In this document: one piece after another, positions 7,923 to 49,546 of the stretch
Numbering within the stretch: position 1 is the stretch's first letter
How the letters are laid out: each line of letters starts with the position of its first letter
NCBI GenBank assembly: GCA_029561455.1
Contig: JAKQIY010000041.1
Span: 1 to 64,000, forward strand
Reading direction: 5' to 3'
DNA from: a bacterium
GTDB taxonomy: Bacteria; Zhuqueibacterota; Zhuqueibacteria; Residuimicrobiales; Krinioviventaceae
DNA: 64,000 nt
Translations under genes and position numbers: made by a program
The notes under the pieces: generated by a model
What the model was told of the DNA's origin: nothing
Databases searched by the model: none
Seen by the model: only the letters and a program-made list of their open reading frames with translations

Positions 7923-7980
7923 TGATCTGATCATTCGTCCAACAAGTCCATGCCGTCCACGCTAAATATAAACCGAAACC

Positions 7981-11286: not shown

Positions 11287-11324
11287 GATTATCCCTCAAA
11301 TAATAGACATTGTTCAGTCACATT

Positions 11325-12578: not shown

Positions 12579-12742
12579 GTTTTTCTGCCTCGCCTGATTA
12601 TGTTCATTAATTGAATAAATTATTTGGATGGAGAAAAGATAAAAAAGAAAATGGTAATTTGCAAGGATTAAGAATGGGGTTAATACTAATAAAGTTAGTA
12701 CTTGAATTGCAAAGATGCAATGATGCTGCTTCACCAGAAATA

Positions 12743-13300
12743 TTACTTTGTATTACTCAATTTTTTAACCCCCTGCACAAACACCATAAAACTATGTGAC
12801 CGGGTATTTACCGGGTCAAGATAGGGCGCTATTTGTCTGGACCCGCTTACCTTTTGGTATTCAGGGACAAGACGCTCAAGTTCCTGCGCCGCATTGGCGA
12901 GAGTATCCGGGTATCGGTATTTAGCCTTATTTTGCTTTTTTGCCAGACCGCTTTTATTCATACCTCTTTCAACTGCCAGTAAATCGGCCAGGTACCAGCT
13001 TTCCAATTCATGACAAGCGATTCGTACTAAAAAATCATGTCTGCCGGAATTTTGACATTTTTTTAATAACCTCTGTTTTATTATATGACAATCCCCGGCA
13101 TCTTTGTCCCGCAATATAATGAATTTTGCTTCGGGATTTAAATAACCTCGTAGTTTAACTTCTAAACGTTTCTCGAGATCGGTTTTACCTTCAAAAGGGA
13201 TAGTACGAAAGGTAACATTTTCAGGAAGAATTTTCGGCAACAGGCCTTTCAACATTTCTTGCGCGGAAGGTTCTTCCAGCAGAAAAACCAGTTCGGTCAT
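12743..13300 (-). CDS. DUF4276 TOPRIM-like protein, partner of the AAA ATPase
   Basis: The 185 residues match DUF4276. The first strand ends in Glu-Glu (FLLEEPSAQEML, residues 9-10), a later strand carries a D-x-D (ILRDKDAGDC, Asp65 and Asp67), and the family signature CHELESWYL is at 96-104. The Glu plus DxD layout is that of TOPRIM metal sites, so a nuclease role is plausible but not shown. Start: ATG at 13300 overlaps the TGA of the upstream ATPase (ATGA), with GGAG 10 nt before it, so the two are translationally coupled. The in-frame start 12 codons upstream, inside the ATPase gene, is less likely. Confidence 0.8.
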   Translation of the reverse strand: MTELVFLLEEPSAQEMLKGLLPKILPENVTFRTIPFEGKTDLEKRLEVKLRGYLNPEAKFIILRDKDAGDCHIIKQRLLKKCQNSGRHDFLVRIACHELESWYLADLLAVERGMNKSGLAKKQNKAKYRYPDTLANAAQELERLVPEYQKVSGSRQIAPYLDPVNTRSHSFMVFVQGVKKLSNTK

Positions 13301-26651: not shown

Positions 26652-28361
26652 TTACTTTAGCAACAGCATCTTTTGCCGGGCTACAAAATGCTCGCCGGCC
26701 TGAATTGTATAAAAATATACGCCGCTGGCGACGCGGGAACCATGGTCGTTGCTGCCGCTCCAGGTAACGGAATGACTGCCGGCCGGCGTCATCTTGTCCA
26801 GCAGGGTGCGGACGGTTTTGCCATTGATGTCGGTAATGATCAACGTCACATTGCACATTTCAGCCACGTCATAACGAATGGTGGTTGCCGGATTAAAGGG
26901 ATTAGGGAACGCCGGGTATAAGGCAAATTTCTCCGGGATTTCCATCCCTACCTGTACCTCGACCTGCTGACTGTAATCGATCAGCCCGTTAATATCCACA
27001 CTGACCAGGCGGTAATAATAGCTGTTCTTATTATCTGCGGTATTATCGGTAAAAGTGTAGGTATGACCGGATGTCGTTGAACCCTGCCCTTGCAATTCCG
27101 GGTTAGTTTTATAACCGGCAATCTGCTGCCAGGCAAGCATTTGTCCCGTGCCATTTTTCTCCGCCCGTTCAATATTAAAGCCCAGATGATTAGTTTCGCT
27201 GGCGGTTTTCCAGGTAATAACCACGGCATTGTTCTGCCGGGAAGCGTTAAAGCCTATCAGCTCCACCGGCAGGCTTTCATCCATTTCAGTAATAAGCACA
27301 TTCGAGGGATTTGTGTCGCTGTATCCCCCTTGCATCCATGCGCCGGTAGCCGGCACAATAATATCTTCGCAGCTGGAAAAACCGGGGCAAAATGATAATG
27401 ACGGGTTTCCATTAGTCAGGGACCACTTTGCATCACAACTTTTATTCACAAGATAATAAGTACCATCTTTAATATACTGGGGGTAACTTCCATAATCGCC
27501 GTCTCGTTCATAAATACCGTTAAAATCTTCATCTTCCGCGTCGGTTACATTATAACGTGTCGGGTAGCCGTTGAATACGATTATATTAAAAGTTTTTTCT
27601 AAATACAATTCGCCATCATCGGTGGTGCGGATCTTTACCGAATAGCTGCTTTTGGTGCTTTTATGGGCAACAAAAGCGGACTTTAATGTACTGCCCTCAA
27701 TGGTAAAACTGGCATTATCCGCGCCGCCGGCAGCAAAAGAATAGGTATGAACGCTCGCATCTTCCGAATCGGTAGTCGTGAGTGTTCCAACGGTTGTACC
27801 ATTGGGATCATCTTCATTCAGTACCCGGTTGGACAATGTTAAACTGTTGGGCGCCACATTCACAAGGGTGTAATCAATGTCATCGCAATACCAGTTGGTG
27901 TTTGAGCCGGGCGTGACCCCGCGAATTTTGGTAATACCGGTCCAGTTGTCAAAAGTGACCTGCGTATAAGAAGTGGTTACTGTCACATCTTTGTTGTATA
28001 ATTGTGATTCTTCATCCAATCCGTAAAAACTGACTGTAAAATTGATGGATGAGCTTTTGATCCATAAACTGTTGAGCTGGATTTTGTTCCCGGTAGTCTT
28101 TCTTACAACCCAGGCGGCGCCATAATTAGAGCCCTGAAATATACAATATGGCGAGCTGCGATAACCGGAAGCGCTAATTGTACCCCATTCACTATCAAAG
28201 AACCAAGTATGTTCGTTTTCAGTCCAGGAAATACCGGAAGAGTTAAATGTTAAAACATAAGCGTTTGCGGTTTGGGTCTGGAATACCAGGATCACTGTTA
28301 ACAACAAAAGCACTAAAATACATGTTTGCTTTTTACCATTACTTACTTTATCAAGCTTCAT
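26652..28361 (-). CDS. Secreted multidomain protein with cadherin-like region and T9SS sorting domain
   Basis: The 569 residues have a signal peptide (about 1-34). The next part, about 35-165, is an Ig/jelly-roll-like domain (TFNSSGISWTENEHTWFFD). It is followed by a cadherin-like stretch (LNEDDPNGTTVGTLTTTDSE), a small domain of about 270-345 with NGIYERDG, PQYIKDG and AKWSLTNG, an FN3-like region (VVITWKTASETNHLGFNIER) and a T9SS sorting domain (YPAFPNPFNPATTI). The NGIY...KW domain is also the main part of the next upstream gene. GGAGG lies 8 nt before the ATG. Function unknown; probably surface adhesion or binding. Confidence 0.8.
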   Translation of the reverse strand: MKLDKVSNGKKQTCILVLLLLTVILVFQTQTANAYVLTFNSSGISWTENEHTWFFDSEWGTISASGYRSSPYCIFQGSNYGAAWVVRKTTGNKIQLNSLWIKSSSINFTVSFYGLDEESQLYNKDVTVTTSYTQVTFDNWTGITKIRGVTPGSNTNWYCDDIDYTLVNVAPNSLTLSNRVLNEDDPNGTTVGTLTTTDSEDASVHTYSFAAGGADNASFTIEGSTLKSAFVAHKSTKSSYSVKIRTTDDGELYLEKTFNIIVFNGYPTRYNVTDAEDEDFNGIYERDGDYGSYPQYIKDGTYYLVNKSCDAKWSLTNGNPSLSFCPGFSSCEDIIVPATGAWMQGGYSDTNPSNVLITEMDESLPVELIGFNASRQNNAVVITWKTASETNHLGFNIERAEKNGTGQMLAWQQIAGYKTNPELQGQGSTTSGHTYTFTDNTADNKNSYYYRLVSVDINGLIDYSQQVEVQVGMEIPEKFALYPAFPNPFNPATTIRYDVAEMCNVTLIITDINGKTVRTLLDKMTPAGSHSVTWSGSNDHGSRVASGVYFYTIQAGEHFVARQKMLLLK

Positions 28362-31415: not shown

Positions 31416-32492
31416 TCATCCCGCTTTCCGCGTCGACGTCCTCCCATCCTTGTGGCAGTCCGCGCATTTAGCAAAGTGAATATTATTCTTGCTGGCCGGA
31501 TCACGGAAGGTGGTGTCCATCACTTTTACATCCAGTCCGCAATTGGACAGGGCAGGATGGCAATTGCCGCAGGATTGCGCGGTTTCGTGTTTGTGCGGCG
31601 CGTGACAGGCCAGGCAGCTCAATCCCTCATGCACGCCGCGCGGGGTGCGGTCATCGCTGGTTCCAGCCTGATGCCACGCATCTGGCGCATGGCATTGACT
31701 GCACACCCGCTGCCGCACATCATCGGAGACCTGCACCGGGCGCGCCCCTTCCCATAGTTTCAATGCCGGTAAATCGGCGGCGGCAAAATGCGTTTTTTCA
31801 CTGCGCACGTAAAATTCCACATTGACCAGCCGGGCAGGCCGGGTCGAGGCAATCATCTGTGGCTCGGCATAATCGGGCGCCTGCGCCGGTTGTCCGGGAC
31901 GATGGATATGATGACACGCCAGGCAGGGAATAACCGGCTGCTCTGCTTTTTCAGCATCCACAAACCGCCAGGGACCCTGGTTGTTGACCGGCGTAACAAT
32001 CTCTGCAATGTTACCGGAGAAAAACATCCCGTGGCAGCGCATACAATCGTTATGCGGCTGCTCGGTGTGGTTGTGGGTCGCGTCCAGGTAAATATCGGCG
32101 TAAGTAACGGAATGGCCACCCGCTTGCCAGTCCGCATACTCGGCTTCGTGGCAGCCTTTACAGCGCGGCAGAATTCGGAGGATTTGTTCTTCCTGCATGG
32201 CCAATTCCGGCCTGGAATTTCCGCTAAAATGCCCAACCACCCGCCGGCCGTTTTCCAGCATACTGTGCCAGCCGTTGCTCAAAGCGCCGCCGTGACAGGA
32301 CTTGCAATTAATGTCGCGGTGATACGAGTCCGCCCAGTTATCATAGTTGGTTTGCATTTCATGACAGGATAAACAGGTTTTGCGCGGCGAAGCCAGGCTC
32401 CACCAGGTAAAAAAAGCGCCAAAAGCAATAAGTAACGCCAGCGTCAGCGCTCCGGCTAACAAGATCATTGTAGTTTGATTGGGTTTTTTCAT
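31416..32492 (-). CDS. Nine-haem c-type cytochrome, membrane-anchored, of the FAD dehydrogenase operon
   Basis: After an N-terminal membrane anchor (LLAGALTLALLIAFGAFFTWW) there are nine CXXCH motifs: CLSCH, CKSCH, CKGCH, CMRCH, CLACH, CSQCH, CLACH, CGNCH and CADCH. The first part resembles NapC/NirT-type anchors. It would take electrons from the GMC flavoprotein encoded 70 bp upstream and pass them to quinone or terminal acceptors. In characterised gluconate/glucoside dehydrogenases the cytochrome subunit has only one to three haems, so this is an unusual replacement. Start ATG 32492 has only a weak GGGC upstream. Confidence 0.9.
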   Translation of the reverse strand: MKKPNQTTMILLAGALTLALLIAFGAFFTWWSLASPRKTCLSCHEMQTNYDNWADSYHRDINCKSCHGGALSNGWHSMLENGRRVVGHFSGNSRPELAMQEEQILRILPRCKGCHEAEYADWQAGGHSVTYADIYLDATHNHTEQPHNDCMRCHGMFFSGNIAEIVTPVNNQGPWRFVDAEKAEQPVIPCLACHHIHRPGQPAQAPDYAEPQMIASTRPARLVNVEFYVRSEKTHFAAADLPALKLWEGARPVQVSDDVRQRVCSQCHAPDAWHQAGTSDDRTPRGVHEGLSCLACHAPHKHETAQSCGNCHPALSNCGLDVKVMDTTFRDPASKNNIHFAKCADCHKDGRTSTRKAG

Positions 32493-32562
32493 ATTTTGCC
32501 CATATTTTTTAATTTTTTTGCCCTACCAGGATATAACGGGTTAACCTGCCGGTTTTACATTG

Positions 32563-34218
32563 TCAGGAGCGGAATTTAGTTCCCTGCCACTCTTTATTTA
32601 TAAAAGCCGCCACCCAATAACTCAGGGCCATAATGGTCAGCACCGGGTTAAATCCGCCATTGGAAACATGCAGGCTGCCGTCGGCGACGAACAGGTTGTC
32701 GATCTCGTGCATTTGCCCGAATTTATTGGTCACCGAGGTTTTCGGATCATTGCCCATGCGGCAGGTGCCGGCCTGATGTTGGCTGCCGCTCACATCCCGT
32801 CCGGGCAGGCTTTGCCAGGTTTTGACCGCCCCGGCTTGCCGCAGCCATGCTTCCGCGCGGTCGGCTAAAAATTTGGCAACAACAATATCATTTTCATGGC
32901 GGTGCCCGGAAAGCCGCACCACCGGTATGCCCCAGTGATCTTTAACCACCGGGTCAACCTCCACGCGCGATTCGTACACCGGCAGTTCCTGCACCGGCCC
33001 ATGCACCGCAATGTGCCGTTTAAAATAACTGCGCTGAAACTCTTTGTGCTCTTTGCCCCAGCCGGCTGCGCCCTGCGGCCTGATAGAAGAGAACTGGTAC
33101 GGCATACGGATAAATTCGTTAGCCAGTAACCCGCCGCCGATGAGTCCGGGATTGCCGTGATTAAAATCGCATACCGCGATGCAGGCGCCGGGACCAACAT
33201 CGTCATAGACCTCTTCCTTAAACAAGCCATACGCGCCCGTATAGGCATGGCCCTGCAAAGTCCGCCCCACCCGGTCGTTATTATTACCGGCGCCGTTAGG
33301 GAACAAGGCAGATTTTGAGTTCAGCAGCAGCCGCGCGGTTTCGGTTGCGGAAGCGGATAACACCACAATATCGGCAGTTTGCCGCTGTAGCATGTCGTTT
33401 TCATCAAAATATTCAACGCCCTTCGCCAGGCCGCGATTATCCAGAATGATTTTACTCACTTGGGAATCAGTTCGCAATTCGCACAAACCGGTAGCCAGGG
33501 CAATGGGTATGACCGTATTCTGCGTGCCGCATTTGGCGTTAACGGGACAAGCATAGCCGACGCAGGTGCGCATGCGAATGCACGCCGGACGGCCATTATA
33601 AGGCACGGAATTGCGCAACATGGGAATGGGAAAAGGATGGTAGCCCAGACTTTTGGCTGCCTTGTCCATAATTTGCCCTTCGCGATTATAAGCAAACGGC
33701 GGCATGGGCTGGGGCTTGTTGCGTGGCGGCGCATAGGGATTGCGGCTGTCGTCGCCGGAAACACCGATCTCCCATTCGGCTTTTTCATAAAACGGTTCCA
33801 GGTCGTCGTACGATATCGGCCAGTCCTCAAGAACGGACCCGGCTACGCTGCCGTAAATACTGCGTAATTTGAAATCCTGCGGCATGAACCGCCAGGCCAT
33901 GGCGCCGTAGCTCAGCGTGCCGCCGCCCACACAGGCGGCGTTATTGCTGTATGCCCAGGTGTTCGGTAATACTACCCGGCTTGAGCCGTTGCTATCGACC
34001 ACCACACGGCGATAGCGTTCATTATCCGGACCATAGCCGCAGCCCAGCGTAAACATACGTTGCGACCACAATTCGTCATGATCTATATCGTTAAAATCCT
34101 GCTTTTTACCACGCTCAAACAACACCACCGAAAGACCGGCTGTACTCAATTCTTTGGCCATAATACCCCCGCCGGCTCCGGCGCCAACTATCACAGCATT
34201 GACATGTTTGTTAGCCAC
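32563..34218 (-). CDS. GMC-family FAD oxidoreductase, glucoside 3-dehydrogenase / gluconate 2-dehydrogenase-like large subunit
   Basis: The 551 residues begin with an FAD dinucleotide-binding motif (AVIVGAGAGGGIMAKEL). The middle has VGGGTLSYGAMAWRF, usual in the group, and the C-terminus HQAGTCRMGNDP and VSNGGFNPVLTIMAL with active-site His/Asn candidates. It has no signal peptide, but the upstream subunit has a TAT signal and can carry it through, as in the known three-subunit enzymes. Starts with GTG at 34218 with GGAG 6 nt before. Middle gene of the operon: small subunit, flavoprotein, cytochrome. The 3-position specificity is inferred from context. Confidence 0.87.
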   Translation of the reverse strand: MANKHVNAVIVGAGAGGGIMAKELSTAGLSVVLFERGKKQDFNDIDHDELWSQRMFTLGCGYGPDNERYRRVVVDSNGSSRVVLPNTWAYSNNAACVGGGTLSYGAMAWRFMPQDFKLRSIYGSVAGSVLEDWPISYDDLEPFYEKAEWEIGVSGDDSRNPYAPPRNKPQPMPPFAYNREGQIMDKAAKSLGYHPFPIPMLRNSVPYNGRPACIRMRTCVGYACPVNAKCGTQNTVIPIALATGLCELRTDSQVSKIILDNRGLAKGVEYFDENDMLQRQTADIVVLSASATETARLLLNSKSALFPNGAGNNNDRVGRTLQGHAYTGAYGLFKEEVYDDVGPGACIAVCDFNHGNPGLIGGGLLANEFIRMPYQFSSIRPQGAAGWGKEHKEFQRSYFKRHIAVHGPVQELPVYESRVEVDPVVKDHWGIPVVRLSGHRHENDIVVAKFLADRAEAWLRQAGAVKTWQSLPGRDVSGSQHQAGTCRMGNDPKTSVTNKFGQMHEIDNLFVADGSLHVSNGGFNPVLTIMALSYWVAAFINKEWQGTKFRS

Positions 34219-34249
34219 ATTAAACTCCTGTTATTATGATCCCGTTCAC

Positions 34250-34801
34250 TCAGGATTGCCGGTAACGGTTTTGCCCGATGATATAAGGCATATCCAGGTC
34301 CAGCATTTTATAGCTGATATAATTTCTGTTACCGCCGTGCCGCGGACTACCGTAAAAGCCCTGCATGGTATGGTCGCGCAACAGACTGAAGAAGCGCTGC
34401 GGCGATTGTTCTCCCCATTCTTGTTGGTCGACATTGCCGGATTCCAGCGCCTTTAAAACTGTGGTTTGTTCCTCCCACTTCAGTTCTAAAAATGTTTTAC
34501 CGAACATTTTCCGGCAGGTGTGCTGCAAAAGCGGCAGTCCCCGGCGATAGTCAGCCTGGTAAGCGGCCAGCGGCCCAACCAGTTGCTTGTCAATATAAAA
34601 CACCACGCCCGCTTCGATGGCGCCGGGATCGTCGTCCGCCGGGATGATCTGCCCGGTGATCGCTTCAACCAGTTTGGCTTCCTCTTCCGTAAAAAACCGC
34701 CAGTGGGAAAAATGTGCGGAACATCCCAACAAGGATACGACGCCCAGTCCGGCTGCCGTTTGCCCGATAAAACGGCGGCGCGAAATGTCATTCACAGTCA
34801 T
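34250..34801 (-). CDS. Gluconate 2-dehydrogenase subunit 3 family, TAT small subunit
   Basis: The family (PF13618) is the small chaperone-like subunit that escorts the GMC subunit. The TAT signal is ISRRRFIGQTAAGLGVVSLL, directly followed by a Cys (LLGC), so a lipidated TAT subunit is possible. The body has FTEEEAKLVEAITGQIIPAD and FFSLLRDHTMQGFYG, both typical. GGAGG is 5 nt before the ATG. First gene of the dehydrogenase operon, 31 bp upstream of the flavoprotein. Confidence 0.87.
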   Translation of the reverse strand: MTVNDISRRRFIGQTAAGLGVVSLLGCSAHFSHWRFFTEEEAKLVEAITGQIIPADDDPGAIEAGVVFYIDKQLVGPLAAYQADYRRGLPLLQHTCRKMFGKTFLELKWEEQTTVLKALESGNVDQQEWGEQSPQRFFSLLRDHTMQGFYGSPRHGGNRNYISYKMLDLDMPYIIGQNRYRQS

Positions 34802-37164: not shown

Positions 37165-40100
37165 TTATCTGAAATCACCGGTAATTGTAAACGCTCCCCA
37201 GAACGCAGGATAGGGATTGATCTCGGTATAGACAACCTTTTGCGCCAGTTGTAACGCTTCGGCCCGGCTCTTGCCTTCGGCCAGGTAACGGAAAAATCGT
37301 TTGATGAGCACCGCCGTTGCCAAATCGTCCACTTTCCACAAACTGGAAAGCAGCGACGCCGTACCGGCATAAATAAAACTGCGGGACAAGCCGATCACTT
37401 CATCGCCGCCGTGAATAGCGCCCAGGCCGGTCTCGCAGGCGCTCATAGCCACCACAAAAGCATCCAGGTTTAAGGAGAATATTTCATGCGCTTCAAGCCG
37501 GCCATCGTTACTGGAATCCGGGGCTAACAACAACGCCGAAAGCATCGGGTTGGCGTCGTCGTACTGGCCGTGACAACTGAACAACAACAGCGGCGGATAT
37601 TCATGCTGATCCAAAAAATTGGTTTCCGAAGCCCGCTTTTCAAAAAAGCTGTTCACCGTGGGATAATAGCGGGTCATGGCATTCACTTCCAGGGAAGCAA
37701 ACGGCAGAGACCAGCTTTTGTCGCCCAGATCCGGGTTGCCAAATGCCAAAAGCGGCATACTGCGCCGGTCGCGCGTGAGCAGGGAATCGCCACGCGCCAT
37801 GCAAAAGCCATATACTGTGGCGCTGGGTGCAATCGAATTGGCTTTTTTCAAACCAAAAAACTCGCCCATTTGATCCTGTAGTACAGCAAACGGCAGGTAA
37901 TGCATTTGTCCCTGGGGAATAATAACCACCTGTTTAACAGCGGCCAGGTCGCTTTCCCATGGCGCAAAAAACACATTATATAATTCCTGCGACCATTTGG
38001 TAATGGAAAGCTGTTTTTCCAGGGCCTGACGCAAATCGAAAATCTCCTGGACGACCTGTTGCTCATTGACCTGCTGCTTTTTAAAAACATAATGATCCCA
38101 CCTGACAAACCATGAATACAGATAGTCTTTATAGAAATAAAATTCCAGAATCGCGGCGCTATCCGGCAGCATCGCCTGAATTTTTTCTAATGGCCAGGGA
38201 TTGACGCTCATCATATCGGAAAGCTGGGGATTGGTTTCCTGCAATTTCAATAAATGCGCGGTATAGGCGTTTTTCAGCATGTCCATCTCCGCTTCAAGGG
38301 CAAGTGCCTGCCGCGCATGAACGCTGTCCGCAGAGGTTCGCAGGTAAAACAATTTGGATTGCAACGCCTGCATTTGCGTTTGCAAACTATCGCCAATTGC
38401 TTCATCCACGCCGTTTTTAAACGCTATCTTTTTATTGCCAAGCAAATCCAGAAAACTGCGGCTTTTGGCGCGTTCCACCAGCATCAGGGCATCGCCGCCG
38501 CGGTTATTATTAAAGAGCAGGGAAATAAGGGCGCCATAAACCTCCATTTTATCATCAACAAACCCGGAGGCATATTCTTCCACCTTGATGCGGGCGCGCA
38601 TTTTTTCAATCACATCCAGCGCCAGGTAATAATTTCGGATCGCGTCATCCGTGTTTTTTTGCAACGTATCGGTTTCGGCCAGGTTCTTGTAAGCGCGCCA
38701 TTCAATATCCGGTATGAATAAACGGTTCGCAGCTGCCGCAGCCAGGTTAAAATAGACCCGCGCCGAATCGGGTTTATTGTTTAGAAAATGCAGCCGGCCA
38801 TATTCCAACTGGCATTGCGCCTGGTTGCGCCGGTCGCCAATGTCGCTGGAAATTTGCATAGAGCGGTCGCAATAATTCCGCGCCGTGGCTAGTTCCTTAC
38901 GGGCAATATAAATCGAAGCGATATTGCGAAAATCATAAGCCAGGCCGCGCCGGGAACCGATTGTCGAATCAATAGCCGCAGCCTGTTCAAAGCTGGAAAG
39001 CGCCAGGTCGTCGCGCCCCATGGTGCGCTGGATCATACCGATATTTTTATATATAGTCGCCTGGTCGCTTTTATCATTCCGCGCCGAGGCCAGTTCCAGG
39101 GCTTGCAATTCAAATTCCATAGCCGGCTGCGCCTGTCCCAAACTAAGAGCGATCAAACCGCGGGTTGCATAACCGACCTGCAATAATTTTTCATCATTTA
39201 AATCTTGAAAAATTTCCAGCGCCTGGTTTTGATTGGTCAGCGCATTCTGAAAATCGCCGGTCTTCCAGTAAACATTGGCAAGGTATTGTTTGGATAAACC
39301 GATCAGCTTACGGCTGTTTGCCGCAGAAGAGATTTGCAGGGCTTCCTGCTGGTATTGCAGAGCCTGCTGGTAATTGGCCATCTTTTCTGCGGTTATGCCC
39401 AGGTTGTGCAGCGCATCCACCAGGTCCGGCGACGGCCCGAGCGAGCGGAAAATTTCCAGCGCTTGTTGCTGTACCTGCATAGCGTCATAATAATTATCAT
39501 AATAAACAAAATTAATGCGGCCAATATCGCGCAGACACTGGGCGACCCCGGCCGGTTTATTGATCGACTGGAATTTTTCTTTTGCCTGGGTGAAAAATTC
39601 TATAGCGGTAGCGTACTTGCCGCCGCGTTCATATATAAGCCCGGTCTCGCGCAGGGATTTGGCTTCTTCTTCCTTCAGGCCATAGCGTTCGGCCAGTTCC
39701 GAGAATTTGGCTTTGGCGGCTATACCATTATCATAATCGCCCTTTTGAGTATAGAAAAAGGCCAGGTTGCTGTAACCGGAGGCAATGCCGGAGACATTGT
39801 TCTGTTTTTGCGCTTTATCTATCTGGGCAAGCTGAGTCTCTATCGCTTTATCCCACAATCCGCCGTTTACGGCCGTTTCCAGGATACGCTGCTGTAATAA
39901 TCGCACACTCTGCTCATCTTTCTTCAGTTCTGCCATTTGCGCAGCGCTTTCATAAAAACGAATAGCATCGGTCCATTCCCCCAATTCAAAAGCGCTATGA
40001 CCGCGGCGTACCTGTGTCTCAAAACCTTCAACAGCATAACGGGTTTCTTCCACCTCGCTCATGCCACCAAATCCGTAAAGCTGAAAGCGCCCCCAAAATG

Positions 40101-43100
40101 ATGGTGGTTTGCCCTGTTCCCTAAAGCCGGCCTGGGTGGCCCGCAGCGCCTCGGCAACCGGCATTCCCTGTATTTTTTGGTAAAATTGGGTTATAAATTC
40201 AGCATTCTCTTGCGGCGTGGTTTCCCATAACGTTACCAGCATGGAAGGCGCGCCGGCATAACGAAATGCCCGTTCCCAGGCGATGAACGGCTCATTATAC
40301 CTGTTAAACGGAACGCTGTTTTCAAAGCCGATATACACCAATCCGGCATTTAACGACATTTTATACAGATCTATCGAGCTAAAGACCGCCGCGCTCGATT
40401 GCTTGATGCGGAACCCCATACGTGACCGCGCCGGGTCGATTGCATTCCAGTCGCCCGTTACTGACATGTAGATCAGGTCGGACATGGTCATGGGCTGAAT
40501 CTGCTCGCTAAAGCTGTTCGGCTGAGTGCTGCTCAGAGGCAGGGCAACGGTATACCCGTATTCTTTTAACTGGTTGTGGGTATCCTGTAATGAGGCGAAA
40601 AACACCCGCTGACCGGGGATTTTACGTTTATCTATAGAAAAATAATAATCGGAAAGACTGGAACAGACAACAAAAGGCAGCGGTTGCCGTTCCGGGTTGA
40701 GTCCCTGCAGCAGTACCGCCCAGGGCGCCAATACCGCGTCCAGCGACGGAATGATGATCACGTGATCTACCTGGTCTTGTATAGCTTGCAGCGGCGTCAA
40801 CAGTGAAGCAATGGCCGTTTCAGCCGTCCGGGGATCCTTTCCTGACTTTATATCGGCATTGAGCTGCCTGAATTGCATACTCAACTCATTGGCGGAAACC
40901 GGCACGCTGTTAAATGTTATCTGCGCCGTCGTTATCAGCCACACCAGCGCCTGATCTTCCTGGCTGTCAATGTACAGAATTGCTTCCCGCTCCTGCAGCC
41001 GGTCCTGAACTTGTTTTACCCCTACCGGGTTTACCCGTACCAGGGTCTCCAGTTCAGGCACTTCTTCGCGGGCGCTTTCCAGCAGTCCCTGGTATTCCTG
41101 TCTATATTCTTCCAATTCCGCACGGGTAGCTACAATTTGTGAATAAGGAATATTGTACTGATTTTTATATTTCAACAGGGTTATTTGTAATTCATTGATC
41201 TTGTTTTGTAAATATTTGGCATTACCGTAATAGATCTTGTGCCGTTCCTTGCGCAGTTCAATGTTCTCGCCGCTCACAATATCCAGGTACAAATTTGCCC
41301 GCAATCTTTCAGAAAAAGCCAACGCTTCCTGGAAATCGCCTTCCTCCACCAGGTATTTTATGGCCCGGCGATAGGGGATCTGGTGTTCCAGGCGCACTGT
41401 AGCGGCGTTTGCCCCGCCAATTTTCTCCGGGTACGACTGCATTACTTCTATGGCTTCATTAAAGTACTCGTAAGCATCCCACTGAATTGCATATTTGCGT
41501 TTAACGGACAGATCCATTATGGATAACAGATCACCCAGGTCGGTATCGATCCTCCATAATAGATCATAATAAGCGTTACGGATCGCCAGCTTGCGGCTGG
41601 CATTAAGATAACTGAACGATTCGTCGGCATTACGCAGTTTCATATATAATCTGCCCAGCTCGTAATTGACGGAACATTCATCATAGTCCAACTCATATTC
41701 CCTGCTGATCCGCAGCGCCTCTTCCAGGTAAGTTTTGGTATATGAAGCATTATTTAAAAAAGTCATGGTGGCATTTATATTGGCGGCTTTATCCTGTGTT
41801 TCCGGGTTGGTAAAGCTAATGAGCGAAAAATCGGCCAGGTAACGGTACAGGTTGCATTTTAATTGCGCATAACGGGCTTCTTCATCCTGGGTTGCCGCCA
41901 GGGCATCATTGATCTTTTCAGCGGCAATATCATGATAACGGCGCAAATCATTACCAACCAGGCTATAGTCCAATTGTCCTTCCTGAAGACCGGCATTCAG
42001 CGCCAGGACAATTTTTGCCAGGTTGGTGCTGTTGATGATAACCCCTCTTTTAATATCCCGCTTTTTACTGACCTCAAAGGACTGGAGAAAATAATTCCAA
42101 GAATTGGCATAATCGCCCTTTAAAAAATAGAGAAAACCGATATTGTTCAAAAAAGTAGCGTTTGCTTCATAGTCCTTGCGTTTTTTATACAAATCCATCT
42201 TTTTTTGCAGGTACGAGATGGCTTCGCTATAGTTCTTTTCACGAGCATAGCTGTTGCCCAAAATTGAAAAAACCAGGGCGCGTTCATCGTTGGTGGTCAA
42301 TTTCAAAGCGGCGCCCGATGCCATTTTACTCAAATCGAGAAAGGGCAAAGGCATGTATAACCCTAATATTCCCAATTTAACCCGGCTGGCTTCGTTTTTA
42401 ACTTCCTTTACTTTGCCGCTTTCCAGCAGATCTATTGCCAGTTGGGCATAATAAATGGCGTCTTTAGGTTCGTCGAGCATCAGGTAATTATAGGCAATGC
42501 TGCGGTAACTGCGCATCAGTTCGTCATACATGTTCTTGCGCTTTTGCATCTCCGCCGCACTTTGAAAATACTCTATAGCATATTCATTAATATCGCCAAT
42601 CTGGTACAACAGGGCCAGGCGGCTGTTGTTCAGTAACACATGCCATTCATTGCCCTGTTCTTTATAAAGTTTTATAGCGCGTTTTAAATAGCGCGGGCCG
42701 CGCTCCAGGTCTTCCACCACCAGGGCGCAGTGACCCATGCGCTCAAAGATCAGCGCTTCGCGCTGTTCATCAAAAAATGTGGAATCCAGAGCCAATTTGA
42801 TATGATAGTATTTATAGGCATTTTCAAAGCCGAACTCGCCGAGGTTGTAATAGTTATTAGCCAGGTTCAGGGCCAGGTTGGCTTCCAGTTCGGGATCCTG
42901 GCGCTCGTCATTCAAGCCAATCGCTTTGGTCAGTTCATGAATGGCGCGTTCATAATAACCGCGCGGGGCGTCCAGCTTGGCAAAGGTGATGGTATTATAT
43001 AACGAAATAAACGGCGCCTCGATCATTTCCTTTGCCCTGGTAAAAAAGCTCTTGGGCTTGGCGCGCTGCCGTTGCAGCGCCTGTTCCATCATTTCATAAT

Positions 43101-45618
43101 TATAGCTAATGGTTAAATACGGCTGCACCAGGGTATAATCCATCGCCAGGGAACGGGCAATGGTGGAACTGGAACGATTGAGAATGCCCGGGTCGAGCGC
43201 ATCCGGTTCATTATATAGCTCGGCTTTTTCGGTTCCCTTGTAAGAATAGGCCAGACCCAGGGAATATAATACAGTTTGTTCCTTTGGATATTTCTTGACG
43301 AGCCCCTCATATTCCACCACCGCCTGGTCGATTTTACGCAAATAATACATACATTCAATGTAACCACGGTGGGCGTCCAGCGTGGATGGCGACATTTCTT
43401 TGGCGCGGGCATAACGTATCAACGCCAGGCTGAATTCCTGCATCTGTTTCAGTTCGTCGCCCGATTCCAGCAAGGCATCGAGTAATTTCTGCCATGCCTG
43501 GGTGTACAGGGCCGGTCGGCCGGTCTCAAACTTTTTATAGAGCTGTTCCAGCAGGGTGAAGGCCTGTAACTTTTCACCCATTTTTAACAACGCTTCGGCT
43601 TTGAACATTTGCGCGGTAAATACTTCATCTTCCAGATCGGGAAAAAGGGAAACGATCAGATCAAATTCCTGAATGGCTGAAGCATAATCGCCGGCGCGGT
43701 ACAATATCTCGCCGATGCGTTGCTGCGCTGCGGCCGCCAGCAGCGGAAACTGTGAATACTGGCCAACCAGTTCGCGATATTTGCCAACCAGTTGCGTCTC
43801 CCGCGTCACCTTAACCGTCAGCAGATCGAGGATCCGGTCGCGGGCCGGCACCATCCATTGCCGCTGTTCGGGGTAATTGATAACCACCTGCAGATAAGCA
43901 TTGATCACCTCTTCCTGGGCGGCAAAGCGTTTGAACACATCGCCGATCTTTAACTGGCTTTCGGCGCACTGTGACCGCTGCTGTGGAAATTCCCGCAATA
44001 CCTTCTGATATTCCCGGAACGCTCGGGCATCCTGCCCGGCTTTGAAAAGCAAATCGCCCATCATAATACGCGCGGCTGCTGCCGGCTCCGCCTGGTCTTT
44101 ATACTTGCTGTTAATAGCATCAAGTCCTGAAAGCAGCATTTCCAGGTTATCCTTGTGCCGGTTTTGCTGCGCCGTCATCCCCAACATCACCATTTCGGCA
44201 TAAGCGGTTATGATTCGCTCATCAGGATAATTATCCAATAATAATTGCAAAAATTTTGTGGCTTCATCGGGAAAGCCGATCAGATCGTAACACACGCCCA
44301 TTTCGTACAATGACTGCGCGGCCAGGGGATTATCGGTACCGTGAAAATCCAGCACCCGGCGGAACGCCAGGGCGCGATCCCACAAGATCAGTTGCTCGCG
44401 GTTGCTTAGAGTAGCAGGGTCCCAATCCAAAAACAGGGGGCCTAGCGTTTGCCGCGTCATTCTGGCCGGCAGGGCATAAGCTGTTACCGCCAGGTCATAT
44501 TGTTCCTGCGCAGTGTTCATCTGCGCAATATAACCCATAGCCGGGAACGACCACACATCCAGGTTGCCGCCACGGTCGGAAGTAAAATAGATACGGTTGT
44601 TGGCGCCTGACCAGGGCTGCATGGCATTTTCACCGCCGGAGGTCAACGGCATGGCATAATGCACCATGCGTAAATTAAAAGACCTGCCCAGCGCCTCCAG
44701 CATGGGGTTACTTGCCTGCGCCGTATCGACCGGGGATTCGTATACTTCAGCTTCCCAGACTATGGCGCGGTCTGCCGGGGAAAGACGCATATCGGCATTT
44801 GTATCGAAATGGTTGCGTAAAAAGGTCACATTTTTTGCGTTTGGGTTCCAGGTCGGAAAACCATCAATATCCGGCCCTTTGGTTATTTGCCAGGTGGGAC
44901 TTTCTCTTTTATCCCAAAGCAGGGTATCGTTGCCGGTGGGTTTGGGCCCTTTAAGATAGATAACAAAAATATCGCCGTTATTTTCGTTGCCGTCACGGAA
45001 TGAGGTAAAAGCAATAAAACGTAAATCCGTGCTCCATACCGGGTGGGTGCCGCCTAAAAAAGTCAACTGGCTGGTTTTGCCGGTATTATCGTTATGAAAC
45101 CACAATTCCTCGCGCCCGGTGCGATCCGAAACCCAGCACACCTTTTTACCATCCGGGGAAACGGCGGGATATCCATCGAGGCCCAGGTAATCGGTGAGGC
45201 GTTCCAGTTTATCTTTGGGATATAATTTACCTTTAACTTCCCGTAATTGAACCCGCCAAATATCGCCGGCGGCGTCGCTACGCTGTGAAACAAAAACAAT
45301 GGATTTTCCGTTCGGGCTCCACACCGGATAATAATCATCCGCTTTGTGCGTAGTGATCTGAATATCGCGTCCGCCCGCCGTCGGGCGTATCCAGATGTCA
45401 AAATTCCCGGATTGCCGCGATACATAGGTCATCCATTTGCCATCCGGGGAAATCCGCGCCGACAAATCGATATCCGGGTGTGTGGTTACCTGTTGATAAT
45501 CCAGGCTCTTTTTGTCAACCGCCTGCGAAAATACCCGGCTTCCATTCAGGCCGGATATTTGGAGAATAATGAACAAAAGAACTGTTCTTTTTATACCGGT
45601 TAAAGCGCTTTTTTTCAT
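37165..45618 (-). CDS. Exported giant protein: TolB-like propeller, TPRs, inactive CHAT, TPRs, active CHAT protease
   Basis: CHAT domains are separase/caspase-like Cys proteases. In order: a signal peptide (about 1-32); a PD40/TolB-type propeller of about 40-370 (ISPDGKWMTYVSRQSG, WSPNGKSIVFVSQRSD); TPR-like helices of about 410-1480; a first CHAT-like domain of about 1560-1835; more TPRs to about 2440; a final CHAT domain of about 2510-2817. The final one has the dyad His2683 (LFSCHGQYD) and Cys2728 (MSACETGLG). In the first domain the aligned sites are Thr1721 (YMSVTGDW) and Phe1765 (YIGFENS), so it is a pseudo-protease. This matches the two-domain plan of eukaryotic separase. There is no T9SS domain, so it is probably periplasmic. 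It lies 24 bp after the YdbL-like gene. Substrate unknown. Confidence 0.88.
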   Translation of the reverse strand: MKKSALTGIKRTVLLFIILQISGLNGSRVFSQAVDKKSLDYQQVTTHPDIDLSARISPDGKWMTYVSRQSGNFDIWIRPTAGGRDIQITTHKADDYYPVWSPNGKSIVFVSQRSDAAGDIWRVQLREVKGKLYPKDKLERLTDYLGLDGYPAVSPDGKKVCWVSDRTGREELWFHNDNTGKTSQLTFLGGTHPVWSTDLRFIAFTSFRDGNENNGDIFVIYLKGPKPTGNDTLLWDKRESPTWQITKGPDIDGFPTWNPNAKNVTFLRNHFDTNADMRLSPADRAIVWEAEVYESPVDTAQASNPMLEALGRSFNLRMVHYAMPLTSGGENAMQPWSGANNRIYFTSDRGGNLDVWSFPAMGYIAQMNTAQEQYDLAVTAYALPARMTRQTLGPLFLDWDPATLSNREQLILWDRALAFRRVLDFHGTDNPLAAQSLYEMGVCYDLIGFPDEATKFLQLLLDNYPDERIITAYAEMVMLGMTAQQNRHKDNLEMLLSGLDAINSKYKDQAEPAAAARIMMGDLLFKAGQDARAFREYQKVLREFPQQRSQCAESQLKIGDVFKRFAAQEEVINAYLQVVINYPEQRQWMVPARDRILDLLTVKVTRETQLVGKYRELVGQYSQFPLLAAAAQQRIGEILYRAGDYASAIQEFDLIVSLFPDLEDEVFTAQMFKAEALLKMGEKLQAFTLLEQLYKKFETGRPALYTQAWQKLLDALLESGDELKQMQEFSLALIRYARAKEMSPSTLDAHRGYIECMYYLRKIDQAVVEYEGLVKKYPKEQTVLYSLGLAYSYKGTEKAELYNEPDALDPGILNRSSSTIARSLAMDYTLVQPYLTISYNYEMMEQALQRQRAKPKSFFTRAKEMIEAPFISLYNTITFAKLDAPRGYYERAIHELTKAIGLNDERQDPELEANLALNLANNYYNLGEFGFENAYKYYHIKLALDSTFFDEQREALIFERMGHCALVVEDLERGPRYLKRAIKLYKEQGNEWHVLLNNSRLALLYQIGDINEYAIEYFQSAAEMQKRKNMYDELMRSYRSIAYNYLMLDEPKDAIYYAQLAIDLLESGKVKEVKNEASRVKLGILGLYMPLPFLDLSKMASGAALKLTTNDERALVFSILGNSYAREKNYSEAISYLQKKMDLYKKRKDYEANATFLNNIGFLYFLKGDYANSWNYFLQSFEVSKKRDIKRGVIINSTNLAKIVLALNAGLQEGQLDYSLVGNDLRRYHDIAAEKINDALAATQDEEARYAQLKCNLYRYLADFSLISFTNPETQDKAANINATMTFLNNASYTKTYLEEALRISREYELDYDECSVNYELGRLYMKLRNADESFSYLNASRKLAIRNAYYDLLWRIDTDLGDLLSIMDLSVKRKYAIQWDAYEYFNEAIEVMQSYPEKIGGANAATVRLEHQIPYRRAIKYLVEEGDFQEALAFSERLRANLYLDIVSGENIELRKERHKIYYGNAKYLQNKINELQITLLKYKNQYNIPYSQIVATRAELEEYRQEYQGLLESAREEVPELETLVRVNPVGVKQVQDRLQEREAILYIDSQEDQALVWLITTAQITFNSVPVSANELSMQFRQLNADIKSGKDPRTAETAIASLLTPLQAIQDQVDHVIIIPSLDAVLAPWAVLLQGLNPERQPLPFVVCSSLSDYYFSIDKRKIPGQRVFFASLQDTHNQLKEYGYTVALPLSSTQPNSFSEQIQPMTMSDLIYMSVTGDWNAIDPARSRMGFRIKQSSAAVFSSIDLYKMSLNAGLVYIGFENSVPFNRYNEPFIAWERAFRYAGAPSMLVTLWETTPQENAEFITQFYQKIQGMPVAEALRATQAGFREQGKPPSFWGRFQLYGFGGMSEVEETRYAVEGFETQVRRGHSAFELGEWTDAIRFYESAAQMAELKKDEQSVRLLQQRILETAVNGGLWDKAIETQLAQIDKAQKQNNVSGIASGYSNLAFFYTQKGDYDNGIAAKAKFSELAERYGLKEEEAKSLRETGLIYERGGKYATAIEFFTQAKEKFQSINKPAGVAQCLRDIGRINFVYYDNYYDAMQVQQQALEIFRSLGPSPDLVDALHNLGITAEKMANYQQALQYQQEALQISSAANSRKLIGLSKQYLANVYWKTGDFQNALTNQNQALEIFQDLNDEKLLQVGYATRGLIALSLGQAQPAMEFELQALELASARNDKSDQATIYKNIGMIQRTMGRDDLALSSFEQAAAIDSTIGSRRGLAYDFRNIASIYIARKELATARNYCDRSMQISSDIGDRRNQAQCQLEYGRLHFLNNKPDSARVYFNLAAAAANRLFIPDIEWRAYKNLAETDTLQKNTDDAIRNYYLALDVIEKMRARIKVEEYASGFVDDKMEVYGALISLLFNNNRGGDALMLVERAKSRSFLDLLGNKKIAFKNGVDEAIGDSLQTQMQALQSKLFYLRTSADSVHARQALALEAEMDMLKNAYTAHLLKLQETNPQLSDMMSVNPWPLEKIQAMLPDSAAILEFYFYKDYLYSWFVRWDHYVFKKQQVNEQQVVQEIFDLRQALEKQLSITKWSQELYNVFFAPWESDLAAVKQVVIIPQGQMHYLPFAVLQDQMGEFFGLKKANSIAPSATVYGFCMARGDSLLTRDRRSMPLLAFGNPDLGDKSWSLPFASLEVNAMTRYYPTVNSFFEKRASETNFLDQHEYPPLLLFSCHGQYDDANPMLSALLLAPDSSNDGRLEAHEIFSLNLDAFVVAMSACETGLGAIHGGDEVIGLSRSFIYAGTASLLSSLWKVDDLATAVLIKRFFRYLAEGKSRAEALQLAQKVVYTEINPYPAFWGAFTITGDFR

Positions 45619-45642: not shown

Positions 45643-46203
45643 TTACTTTTTCTCCGTCCATGAACCATCGGACTTTTGCATTAACGTGCCGGAAGGTGAA
45701 TTATCGTAATTGAGTTTGAAAAATATCTGGTTTCGCTCTTCTTCATTTGCCTCTGCCGCCGATTGGTTGATGGCAATTATTCTCTCGTATACAACTTCAC
45801 GATCCTGGTTCTCTTCGGCAATGACCTGGTCGACCAGGCGCTTATAATCGGCGTCGCCGGTATATTTTTCGGTCGGCACAACTTCCAGGTAACCTTTATT
45901 ATTTTCGCCAACGACCTTATCGCGTTTAAATTCATCAATCTCATCCTTGTTGAATTTGCGGTTCTGCACCGCATCCAGCACCTGTTTGCGCTGCGCCGAG
46001 ATTACCCCGGTTTGTCCGCCGCCAATGGAACGGGTGGAAGCGATCACCCAGCTATCGCTTTCAATTTGCTGATAAACGCCCAGCACCTGGTTTTCCAGGG
46101 TGGTTTTTTCACCGGTAATATTAAATTCCGGCACCTGAACGCTGCAACCCAAAATCACCATAGCCAGCGCTAATAATACCCCATAATATTGTGAATAACG
46201 CAT
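45643..46203 (-). CDS. YdbL-like (DUF1318) lipoprotein
   Basis: The 186-residue protein has a lipobox (LAMVILGCSVQ). The C-terminal half follows YdbL of E. coli: KVVGENNKGYLEVVP (YdbL has a GRVGET..GYL motif), then a helical segment with LVDQVIAEENQDREVVYERI, and the end MQKSDGSWTEKK (YdbL ends in a similar NGKWVRK). In E. coli ydbH, ynbE and ydbL form an operon for phospholipid transport to the outer membrane; here the upstream gene is a YdbH-like AsmA protein. The ATG at 46203 has GGAGG 5 nt upstream; the start ten codons earlier is rejected. Confidence 0.82.
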   Translation of the reverse strand: MRYSQYYGVLLALAMVILGCSVQVPEFNITGEKTTLENQVLGVYQQIESDSWVIASTRSIGGGQTGVISAQRKQVLDAVQNRKFNKDEIDEFKRDKVVGENNKGYLEVVPTEKYTGDADYKRLVDQVIAEENQDREVVYERIIAINQSAAEANEEERNQIFFKLNYDNSPSGTLMQKSDGSWTEKK

Positions 46204-46234: not shown

Positions 46235-49200
46235 TTAACTTTTTAAACTGGCGGTCTTGGCGAGCGCCATTTGAATAAAGAAATTGATCGGTTTCCGATT
46301 CAATTCAATCTTGCTGCCGCTCAGCTTGGCCGGAAAATACCATGGCTGGGAAAAATCTATAAATGTATAAAAGAATCCATATTTAAATGAAAACGTGAAC
46401 AGTTGCGGTTTAAAGCCCAGGTTGATGAGCCGCCGGGTCGTGCGAATGCCGGAATCCACACCTTCCGGGTCCAGAGAACGCAGTAAATTATCCGCCACTT
46501 TGGGACCAATCTCGGTAATATAGAAATCACCTTTAATATCCAAACCCTGGGCAATGTTCAAGCCGGTGCCGGAGAATTGTGCATTGGCGTTGATAACCCC
46601 CAAACTTTTATCGCGCTTGATTCCCGCCAGTAACAAGTCGGAATTAATGCCGGAAAAATGCCCGGAAAGCTGATAGGTTGCCTGGTTAATATCGCCCCCA
46701 GCCAGGTTAATGGAAATGCGCCCGCCAATATTACCGCCATACACCGATCCGTAATACGATGGTATATCAATGCGGCCCCGGCCCAGGATCGCTTCCATAT
46801 TAAAATTGTCGATCTCGTATCCTGCCGCCTGAATTTTACCAATAGATAAATAGGAAACTTCGGGTAGAGTCTGCCGGTAATATGGCCGGTATACCAGGTA
46901 ATCGACCGAGCCGTCGGTAGGCGTCAGAATCGGCGGTTTTTCACTTTCCAGAAATATCTGGTTCACCAGATCGAGCGCCTGGTCAAATTTGAGATCGGCG
47001 TTAATATCCTGCACGCGGGTTTGCTGCGGCAGAAATAAGGTTAAATTTTTCGTTTTAAGTGAGCCGGACAGGTTGAGCAAGGCGGTATCCATATTCACCT
47101 GCACCAGCAGATCGGTCACGCCGCGCACCACAAATTCCGGGGTAATCTTGAGCGAATCCGGGGCATCCTGCTTGAACCACAACATGGCGGCAATTTGCGG
47201 ATTGGTATCCACATTGTTAATATCGGCATTAAAAGACCCGCCGGCCTTGAGATCGGGTAAATTGATTTTGCCTTTATTTACCTGAAAAGACAACATGTCT
47301 TTGCTGGTAACTTCCAAAGCAATACTGTTGTTCAACAGCATCGAGGCTTTGCTCAACATATCCGTATGCACTGTATCTATATTCAGAGCCACTTTTACCA
47401 GGGTGTTCATTGCGGAATTGAGGTCCGCAACCACATCCAGCTTGATCCCGCCTATATCAACCAATTGCGAAGGATATGTTACCCCGGTTTGGTTGGTAAA
47501 CAAGTGAGCATTGACCTGGTAATCGAGGGTCTTGGGCTTTACCTTACCGGTCATAACAGCTTCGAGCTGGGTATTGCCGGTTACTTTGAGATCTGCAAAT
47601 TGCTGCCGCAGGCGGTCGGGCAGCCAGTCGAAAATAGCGGCATGCCTGAGCAGCAGGTTTTCCAGTTTCATTTCGACTTTTTCCTTGCCACCCTGCACGA
47701 CGCGGCCGCTGGCCCTGGCGGTCAACAGATCATTTAATTGCATGGTCAGGCTTTTCAAACGGATATTTTGAAACAAGGTATCGGCGCCAAGATCGGCATT
47801 AGCCAGAAAATATATGGAAGGCAGAGTTTCCTGTTCATATTCAAATGGAACGACCAGGGAATCGGTTACAAATTTTATCCGCGCGGTAATATCGTCAATA
47901 CTTTTGATCGTAAAACTAGTCTGCAATTCACCGCGGGTTTGCACCGGCGAGGGGAAATTTTTGGTATCGATATTGGTTATAGCTATTTCCCCGGCGCCGG
48001 AGATACTTTTTATAGTGTTTGAATTATTAATATGTATCTGCGAGTTTAAATTTGTTCCCAGGGCGTTGGCAATTGAAAAATTGACATCGGCAAAGCGGGG
48101 CAGCATTTTATCATTTAATCCCGCATTCATGGTCAGTAAAATTTTCCCGGTATAGGCAGCAAGAGTGTCCGAAATAGCATAAAACGTAGAATCTATAGAA
48201 AGCGTCGTGTTCAGGTTAAGGCCGGCGATGCCGTTTAAAACCAGTTTGCCGGATGCCTCGGCAGAAAAATTCAGCTTTTCCAACTCTGCCTGTCCTTTAT
48301 CCATTGTTACCCCAAAATCCAGGAACTCTACTTTGGTATGAAAGTTCAGGCCGCTGCCGGGGAGGCTGTCCGGTGGAGTGCCGGAAAACCAGGTATCTTT
48401 TAAAACCAGCGCCGCATTTTGATTATGAAAGGCAAGTTCCGGCAACAGTGAATCGGCAACAAACAATTTACCCAAAGTCATTACCTGTTCAACAGGCACT
48501 GCACAATGTTCTATCCGGGCCGAGACTTGCGGCGAGGTGGTGGAGATAAACTTTTGCACCTCGGCAGTCAATCCCAGCCATTTTTTATCATCCACACTCA
48601 CGTTCATCCTGGTAAGCCGTGCTTTTTCCGCGTTCACATTCACAACGGCGGACAAATCCAGGTTCAGCGAAAAAGGCATTTGTAAAGAACTGAAATTGGG
48701 TATAGCCGTTGATGCAAAAAATAATTGCTCCAGCAACAACCTGGCGTCCAGCGTCACGGAATCGAGCGTTACAACGTTGAGTTCTGTAGCCAGATCGATA
48801 TTCCCGTTTACAGACATATTGCCGGTTTTAGCCGAAACCTGTTCAAAAGAAAAGTCGGCATTCTCCGAATTGATCTTGAAAGCTCCTCTTAACAGACTGT
48901 CGTTTGCCAGGATATTGCCACGGGGAACCGTGATCTGATCTATGTAGACGTCCAGGTCCTCAAGAAATACTTTTTGGGTCAGGGAAGAATCCTGCGTGGT
49001 AATTTTTATTTGCGCATCTTTGATGCGTAACTTGTTCAGTTCCAGAGCCAGGGGAGAGACCGGTTGCGCTACGGAATCCGGCTTTACTTTTTGGGTGGTA
49101 TCCGGCGCCAGGGTTAAAAACGCTTCAATTTGCGGGGTATCCAGGATTACTTCGCTGATGCGCAATTCCTTTTTCAACAGGCGTTTCAAGCTGTATTTTA

Positions 49201-49546
49201 ACCGCACCGATTTTACAGCGGCAAAATCCACCGGAAAAGGCGGGTTTACTGCCGTTGCCAGAGAATCCGGCAGCTTTTCCAGCCGGACATTGGTCAATTC
49301 CACGCCGGTCAATGGGTTGATATGAATTTTATCTATGACCAGTTTGCGGGAAAAACTTGTTTCTACAAATTGCGCGGCTTTGGCTTTAACATAATCCGAT
49401 GGAACTACAAACCGGAACAGGATTACCAGCAATAACAGAATGAACACAATAGTTAATCCGAGCACACCAAGAAAACGCAGGAAAAACAGCGCTAACCGCC
49501 GCAGGAATGACTTTTTTGCGGACTTTTCTTTTACCTTTTTTGCCAT
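46235..49546 (-). CDS. AsmA/YdbH-like membrane-anchored envelope protein
   Basis: The 1103 residues begin with a basic tail and one membrane helix (FLGVLGLTIVFILLLLVILF), then an AsmA-type chorein-like start (VKAKAAQFVETSFSRKLVID) and long repeated beta strands to the end (INPLTGVELTNVRLEKL, LNLDLSAVVNVNAEK, YEIDNFNMEAILGRG). Such proteins form periplasm-spanning grooves that move phospholipid between membranes. The YdbL-like lipoprotein directly downstream makes YdbH the closest comparison, although the whole sequence is only generally AsmA-like. Start ATG 49546 has only AGGG about 10 nt upstream. It heads a run of four same-strand genes ending with GH5. Confidence 0.8.
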   Translation of the reverse strand: MAKKVKEKSAKKSFLRRLALFFLRFLGVLGLTIVFILLLLVILFRFVVPSDYVKAKAAQFVETSFSRKLVIDKIHINPLTGVELTNVRLEKLPDSLATAVNPPFPVDFAAVKSVRLKYSLKRLLKKELRISEVILDTPQIEAFLTLAPDTTQKVKPDSVAQPVSPLALELNKLRIKDAQIKITTQDSSLTQKVFLEDLDVYIDQITVPRGNILANDSLLRGAFKINSENADFSFEQVSAKTGNMSVNGNIDLATELNVVTLDSVTLDARLLLEQLFFASTAIPNFSSLQMPFSLNLDLSAVVNVNAEKARLTRMNVSVDDKKWLGLTAEVQKFISTTSPQVSARIEHCAVPVEQVMTLGKLFVADSLLPELAFHNQNAALVLKDTWFSGTPPDSLPGSGLNFHTKVEFLDFGVTMDKGQAELEKLNFSAEASGKLVLNGIAGLNLNTTLSIDSTFYAISDTLAAYTGKILLTMNAGLNDKMLPRFADVNFSIANALGTNLNSQIHINNSNTIKSISGAGEIAITNIDTKNFPSPVQTRGELQTSFTIKSIDDITARIKFVTDSLVVPFEYEQETLPSIYFLANADLGADTLFQNIRLKSLTMQLNDLLTARASGRVVQGGKEKVEMKLENLLLRHAAIFDWLPDRLRQQFADLKVTGNTQLEAVMTGKVKPKTLDYQVNAHLFTNQTGVTYPSQLVDIGGIKLDVVADLNSAMNTLVKVALNIDTVHTDMLSKASMLLNNSIALEVTSKDMLSFQVNKGKINLPDLKAGGSFNADINNVDTNPQIAAMLWFKQDAPDSLKITPEFVVRGVTDLLVQVNMDTALLNLSGSLKTKNLTLFLPQQTRVQDINADLKFDQALDLVNQIFLESEKPPILTPTDGSVDYLVYRPYYRQTLPEVSYLSIGKIQAAGYEIDNFNMEAILGRGRIDIPSYYGSVYGGNIGGRISINLAGGDINQATYQLSGHFSGINSDLLLAGIKRDKSLGVINANAQFSGTGLNIAQGLDIKGDFYITEIGPKVADNLLRSLDPEGVDSGIRTTRRLINLGFKPQLFTFSFKYGFFYTFIDFSQPWYFPAKLSGSKIELNRKPINFFIQMALAKTASLKS

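Follow-up and report, generated by a model that had tools for sequence, protein, structure and literature searches.

A giant propeller-TPR-CHAT protein of Zhuqueibacterota linked to AsmA-superfamily and DUF1318 genes: a candidate adaptor-protease of an intermembrane bridge

What is the task of a bacterial protein of more than 2800 residues that joins a beta-propeller, two TPR blocks and two separase-type CHAT units, and with which partners does it act? The question is raised by a single, uninterrupted open frame at positions 37165-45618 (minus strand) of the first 64,000 nucleotides of contig JAKQIY010000041.1 (assembly GCA_029561455.1, uncultured phylum Zhuqueibacterota). This whole stretch is called the window, and the product of 2817 aa is referred to as the giant. 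We cautiously favor the explanation that the giant is an exported periplasmic adaptor-protease, the third member of an intermembrane-bridge module that also comprises an AsmA-superfamily protein and a DUF1318 lipoprotein. The coupling of the giant to this module is very likely; control of the bridge by proteolysis is put forward tentatively.

Two conserved neighbors, which a first-pass annotation of the window had missed, are located upstream of the giant on the same strand. A YdbL-type (DUF1318) lipoprotein is encoded at 45643-46203 (PF07027, 50.1 bits at a cut-off of 27; lipobox ...VILGC). Its frame opens at 46233, the ATG at 46203, after a GGAGG site, is the likely start, and its stop lies 24 bp ahead of the start of the giant. 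The adjoining gene at 46235-49546 encodes a protein of 1103 aa with an N-terminal membrane anchor, which is assigned to the AsmA superfamily by the profile matches of its orthologs (DUF748 in all 22 orthologs, AsmA in 17 and YhdP in 7 of them). The order AsmA, DUF1318, giant recurs across 40 fetched loci and further named contigs, most of which have the AsmA gene ahead of DUF1318. At the unique loci with enough contig, DUF1318 is found directly upstream of the giant on the same strand, often overlapping or only a few bases apart, in 42 of 48 cases; in 45 of them all it is no farther away than 2 kb. The former count is derived from a script total of 40/50, to which four overlapping cases beyond the script limit were added, and from which two duplicate contigs were removed by hand. 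Where the gene order has been rearranged, the giant remains with one partner: in families f8, f12 and f13 the AsmA gene has been relocated and DUF1318 is still with the giant, in f11 DUF1318 has been relocated and the AsmA gene is located just downstream of the giant. No separate YnbE gene is present between the partners, and no match to YnbE was obtained in Pfam; the DUF1318 protein itself has the lipobox and a conserved N-terminal segment.

The three genes also co-occur across the phylum. Among 82 genomes, 56 contain both the giant and DUF1318, three only the giant, two only DUF1318, and 21 neither of them; for the giant and the AsmA gene the respective numbers are 57, two, two and 21. G023 and G056, which have N-terminal fragments of the giant at contig ends, were scored as containing it, and the exceptions are mostly fragmented assemblies. 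The trio is absent altogether from families f9, f10 and f4 and from genus g13 of f2. As a neighbor control, the gene for a UDP-sugar pyrophosphorylase, the next one upstream, was used. Of 19 genomes that lack the trio, 16 have retained this gene, which makes it less likely that the synteny results from general gene order alone. Classical YdbH (PF11739) has no match in the genome of the window, and within the phylum it is above the cut-off only in G064 and G076, exactly the two genomes with DUF1318 but without the giant. Both have the classical order of YdbH, a small lipoprotein-like gene and a short YdbL (loci L147 and L148, respectively). Within the phylum DUF1318 accompanies either classical YdbH or the AsmA protein described here together with the giant, and the two types appear to replace each other.

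The anatomy of the giant was confirmed by the open frame and by Pfam to be that proposed in the first-pass annotation, which gave no strand. A hydrophobic n/h-region (about residues 1-32; 45523-45618) forms the putative export signal. It is followed by a TolB-like beta-propeller (about residues 40-360; 44539-45501; PD40, 116.6 bits), the first TPR block (about residues 420-1205; 42004-44361; Pfam TPR families), the inner CHAT unit (residues 1370-1860; 40039-41511), the second TPR block (about residues 1880-2330; 38629-39981; TPR_12 and related Pfam families) and the C-terminal CHAT unit (residues 2330-2817; 37168-38631), all on the minus strand. Pfam recognizes CHAT in two stretches (245.6 bits in all), many TPRs along the chain, and N-terminal PD40 repeats. 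Scanned singly, both CHAT units pass the PF12770 cut-off of 24, the C-terminal one with 201.7 bits and the inner one with 53.0 bits. The propeller is TolB-like only and, by its profile score, not TolB proper (TIGR02800, 108.8 bits at a cut-off of 343). Conservation is highest at residues 705-1205 within the first TPR block, with a peak at 901-950, and the propeller is not the maximum.

Structure prediction gave the same fold for both CHAT units. The AlphaFold model of the inner unit (residues 1370-1860, 40 orthologs; pLDDT 91.6) matches Csx29 (Z 25.5), yeast separase (24.2) and DdvA (20.5), and that of the C-terminal unit (residues 2330-2817; pLDDT 84.8) matches Csx29 (Z 33.2), separase (27.7), DdvA (25.5), gingipain (18.7) and caspase-6 (12.0). 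With matches to Csx29, separase, gingipain and caspase, the models have the caspase-like fold of the PF12770 family. Searches of PDB sequences with the profiles A2 and A3 were dominated by repeat proteins; Csx29 appeared for A3. It had been suggested in the first-pass annotation that the dead and the live CHAT domain correspond to the inactive and the active domain of separase. This is refuted by the fold coverage. In yeast numbering, the inner unit aligns with residues 1045-1628 and the C-terminal unit with residues 1060-1626 of separase, that is, each with the whole pseudo-plus-active protease region, and that of Csx29 is likewise covered whole by each unit of about 490 aa alone. Because each unit spans both halves of separase, the giant is, on the models and alignments, a tandem of two complete CHAT units, which are full-length duplicates and one of which is catalytically dead. 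The profile-profile alignment of the inner and the C-terminal unit extends over 465 columns (E 3.5e-63) and, together with the fold coverage, rules out a separase-like dead-plus-live pair, while the term separase-type itself holds.

The same alignment pairs Thr1721 with His2683 and Glu1766 with Cys2728. The catalytic His and Cys of the CHAT family are present in the C-terminal unit (His2683, codon 37570-37572, and Cys2728, codon 37435-37437, both on the minus strand), where fold and alignment place them at the known catalytic sites, and absent from the inner unit. Both C-terminal residues and Thr1721 had been placed correctly. Phe1765, which had been taken as the counterpart of Cys2728, is found at its position but is one residue off. 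As Glu1766 is opposite Cys2728, the distance between the His and the Cys site is 45 in both units, and not 44 in the inner one. The inner dyad is missing in all orthologs seen; the His has been kept by one member and the Cys by none.

Is the C-terminal protease used? Its dyad is intact in most lineages and has been lost in part of f1, f3, G068 and G028, with at least four separate changes on the TPR1 tree, on which the branches of G068 and G028 are long. A single CHAT unit is present in G068 and G011, which end after the inner one, and G028 has no recognizable CHAT; a DUF1318 gene is still located beside the giant in all three. The last unit has a mean identity to that of the window's protein of 46.6% in 30 dyad-intact orthologs and of 24.4% in six dyad-less orthologs, and the always-dead inner unit has a mean identity of 24.3%. 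The respective values for TPR1 are 41.8% in dyad-intact and 45.7% in dyad-less orthologs. Such a pattern would be expected of an active site under selection, in a protein with a core function able to dispense with it. Judged by this conservation, the C-terminal unit is probably an active protease in the dyad-intact lineages.

Orthologs of the giant with 2590-2880 aa are found throughout the phylum, which puts the open frame far beyond chance. The inner region is matched in 72 of 99 sampled genomes, many of them with open frames of 2500-2880 aa, and a search with the first TPR block revealed clear orthologs in families f1-f3, f5-f8, f11-f19 and f21-f23. Many of the sampled genomes are fragmented. 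Named records with relatives belong to candidate division KSB1 (Zhuqueibacterota), to unlabeled metagenome-assembled genomes and to three Delongbacteria at 28-32% identity; the scan behind these records was made with two short peptide patterns, and little can be concluded from a lack of matches elsewhere. Two tandem TPR-CHAT genes are present in the same genome as the giant (L162, G000:C68:40000-59900; open reading frames 5895-9221 and 9391-12861, about 1110 and 1160 aa), the products of which match the second TPR-CHAT half of the giant. In an uncultured Prevotellaceae (L143, ONDS01000017.1), consecutive genes encode large TPR proteins of 624, 1548, 1330 and 783 aa, with weak to moderate matches to the profile of the giant that may reflect no more than TPR similarity.

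Export was judged by N-terminal hydrophobicity, not by SignalP. A strongly hydrophobic N-terminal stretch is present in 50 of 51 assessable orthologs, and in a few of them (L069, perhaps L083 and L104) it ends in a Cys that fits a lipobox. The giant is therefore predicted to be exported, as had been proposed, and its location is presumably the periplasm. It had also been stated that export is unusual for TPR-CHAT proteins. However, when 20 stand-alone TPR-CHAT proteins of the phylum were sampled, the N-terminus was hydrophobic in 18 of them as well, and by this predictor exported TPR-CHAT proteins are the rule in this phylum, not an oddity.

How might the parts work together? The AsmA-superfamily protein would be anchored in the inner membrane and span the periplasm, and the conserved first TPR block of the giant might dock on the DUF1318 lipoprotein or on the AsmA bridge. 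A structural or regulatory role may fall to the propeller and the dead inner CHAT unit, and the C-terminal CHAT unit could be a cysteine protease that is switched on or off by the remainder of the molecule. In that way bridge assembly or lipid flow would be coupled to the cleavage of an envelope protein, possibly a part of the bridge. In Pseudomonas aeruginosa, more of an AsmA-family protein leads to a lower activity of CtpA, a protease bound to a TPR lipoprotein, and in Escherichia coli NlpI-Prc has been linked to phospholipid transport (both according to PMC12569750). This coupling of an AsmA bridge with a TPR-scaffolded periplasmic protease is a precedent for the proposed module.

Several known systems share features with the giant or with its module. 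The E. coli YdbH-YnbE-YdbL system, an intermembrane phospholipid bridge, also combines an AsmA-superfamily gene, a lipoprotein and DUF1318 in one cluster; in the module described here, in contrast, the AsmA protein is outside PF11739, DUF1318 is itself the lipoprotein, no separate YnbE was recognized, and an adaptor-protease of 2800 residues has been added. LbcA-CtpA and NlpI-Prc, pairs of a TPR lipoprotein and a periplasmic protease, share TPR-scaffolded periplasmic proteolysis with the proposed function of the giant, but their protease folds are unrelated, the components are separate polypeptides, and gene linkage to an AsmA bridge is not described in the available part of PMC12569750. Csx29 of the type III-E CRISPR Craspase (PDB 7y84, 8eex), which associates with Cas7-11 and crRNA, has TPRs and a CHAT region with a pseudo and an active half, the same fold and the His-Cys dyad, which in the giant is found in the C-terminal unit. 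In contrast to Csx29, the giant is predicted to be exported and has a propeller, two tandem units, one of them dead, and AsmA/DUF1318 neighbors. No CRISPR array or cas gene was recognized among the neighbors scanned, a scan that was not aimed at them. Separase (PDB 5u1s, 7nj1, 5fby) has the dyad and helical repeats in front, and its entire protease region is of the same fold (Z 24-28); however, it is eukaryotic, cleaves cohesin after a separase motif, is inhibited by securin, and has one protease region, whereas each unit of the giant equals one complete such region. A second non-CRISPR bacterial protein of this fold is the transmembrane anti-sigma factor DdvA (PDB 8rot, 8rw5), considered here on the basis of its PDB title and the fold match.

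The first-pass annotation regarded the giant as a stand-alone, exported and self-regulated separase-like protease that senses a ligand via its propeller, which would make the neighbors incidental. A signal, a propeller and an intact C-terminal dyad are indeed present, and in Delongbacteria a giant occurs without adjoining partners. We consider this unlikely, because the synteny and the joint absence with the AsmA-like and DUF1318 genes are specific in comparison with the neighbor control, and because at least four losses of the dyad have left the context unchanged. Dyad loss with the gene order preserved, seen in part of f1, in f3, G068 and f7, together with the inner unit that is dead in every ortholog seen, could also be explained by an adaptor or scaffold with a purely structural role in the AsmA/DUF1318 bridge, in which the CHAT folds bind proteins and the dyad is not proteolytic. 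Against such a scaffold, which is likewise improbable, it can be held that conservation of the dyad-intact unit is roughly double that of the dead one and drops with dyad loss, as catalysis predicts.

Two further explanations start from the fold. The type IX secretion system (T9SS) relies on caspase-fold sortases as well as on propellers and TPR proteins. The phylum has SprA and sorting tails, several tails are encoded in the window, and both CHAT units have a fold similarity to gingipain of Z 15-19. But SprA is present in 78 of 81 relatives, including those without the giant, sorting tails are present in 81 of 81, there is no covariation, and no T9SS machinery gene was recognized beside the giant. 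A role of the giant as an accessory of T9SS was rejected as very improbable because SprA and the sorting tails occur phylum-wide regardless of it. An envelope-based defense or cell-death effector related to Craspase, suggested by Csx29 being the closest solved fold, has the least to recommend it and was rejected as well. The Csx29 family model (NCBIfam NF041237) gives only 42.1 bits at a cut-off of 300, a library of defense models yielded a generic TPR model as the sole match for the giant and none for its neighbors, and the giant is predicted to be exported and has been retained through the phylum with fixed partners.

Several observations weigh against an adaptor-protease that belongs to the AsmA/DUF1318 bridge. 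The gene context is retained in the lineages that lack the dyad, have only one CHAT unit or have no recognizable CHAT, so proteolysis is not needed for the core role. A related giant is present in two Delongbacteria; at L141, the one full-length locus among them with upstream sequence, neither DUF1318 nor the AsmA gene adjoins the giant, and thus the link to the partners is not universal. Since the pyrophosphorylase gene, too, is frequently found in the vicinity, general gene-order conservation accounts for some of the synteny. The p-values for the co-occurrence of the giant with DUF1318 (Fisher, 2.5e-14) and with the AsmA gene (Fisher, 3e-15) ignore shared ancestry, and independent co-losses are few. 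The AsmA protein of the window reaches 42.7 bits for DUF748, below the cut-off of 50, and therefore its membership in the superfamily rests on its orthologs. Lipid transport by this AsmA partner is proposed by analogy.

Some additional features were observed in the window and its relatives. Proteins with T9SS sorting tails, one of which has a CotH kinase domain, are encoded at 14662-17283, 20701-23586, 26652-28361 and 3065-4024; such tails are abundant in every relative searched. The region 7981-12734 contains the gene for a protein of 1101 aa with HEAT repeats and 3-keto-disaccharide hydrolase domains beside a GFO/IDH/MocA oxidoreductase, likely a 3-keto-sugar pathway. At 31416-34801, the genes for a multiheme-looking cytochrome with many CxxCH motifs, a GMC-type oxidoreductase and a small TAT-signal protein follow one another, and by eye they form a cluster for an alcohol or sugar dehydrogenase. 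Lone in-frame stops were found in otherwise open genes, namely TGA in the pyrophosphorylase gene (G016, G020), TAA in the AsmA gene (G006) and TAG in a CHAT gene (G023). In scans for promoters and terminators, the counts were somewhat higher than for shuffles, with nothing usable.

The partners of AsmA-type bridges in E. coli, and the site and manner of complex assembly, are an open question (PMC12977461). A third gene that occurs phylum-wide, but not in the two relatives using classical YdbH, offers a concrete candidate for such a partner. The lineages that lack the catalytic dyad and yet have the module, at least four, represent natural experiments. It is conceivable, though speculative, that an AsmA-type intermembrane lipid bridge is regulated from within, throughout the phylum, by a protease of the separase/Craspase type, the first TPR block reading the state of the bridge, the dead CHAT unit relaying it to the live one, and proteolysis governing the lipid flow to the outer membrane. 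If true, this would place a protease of the separase/Csx29 type in the bacterial envelope, with a defined pathway.
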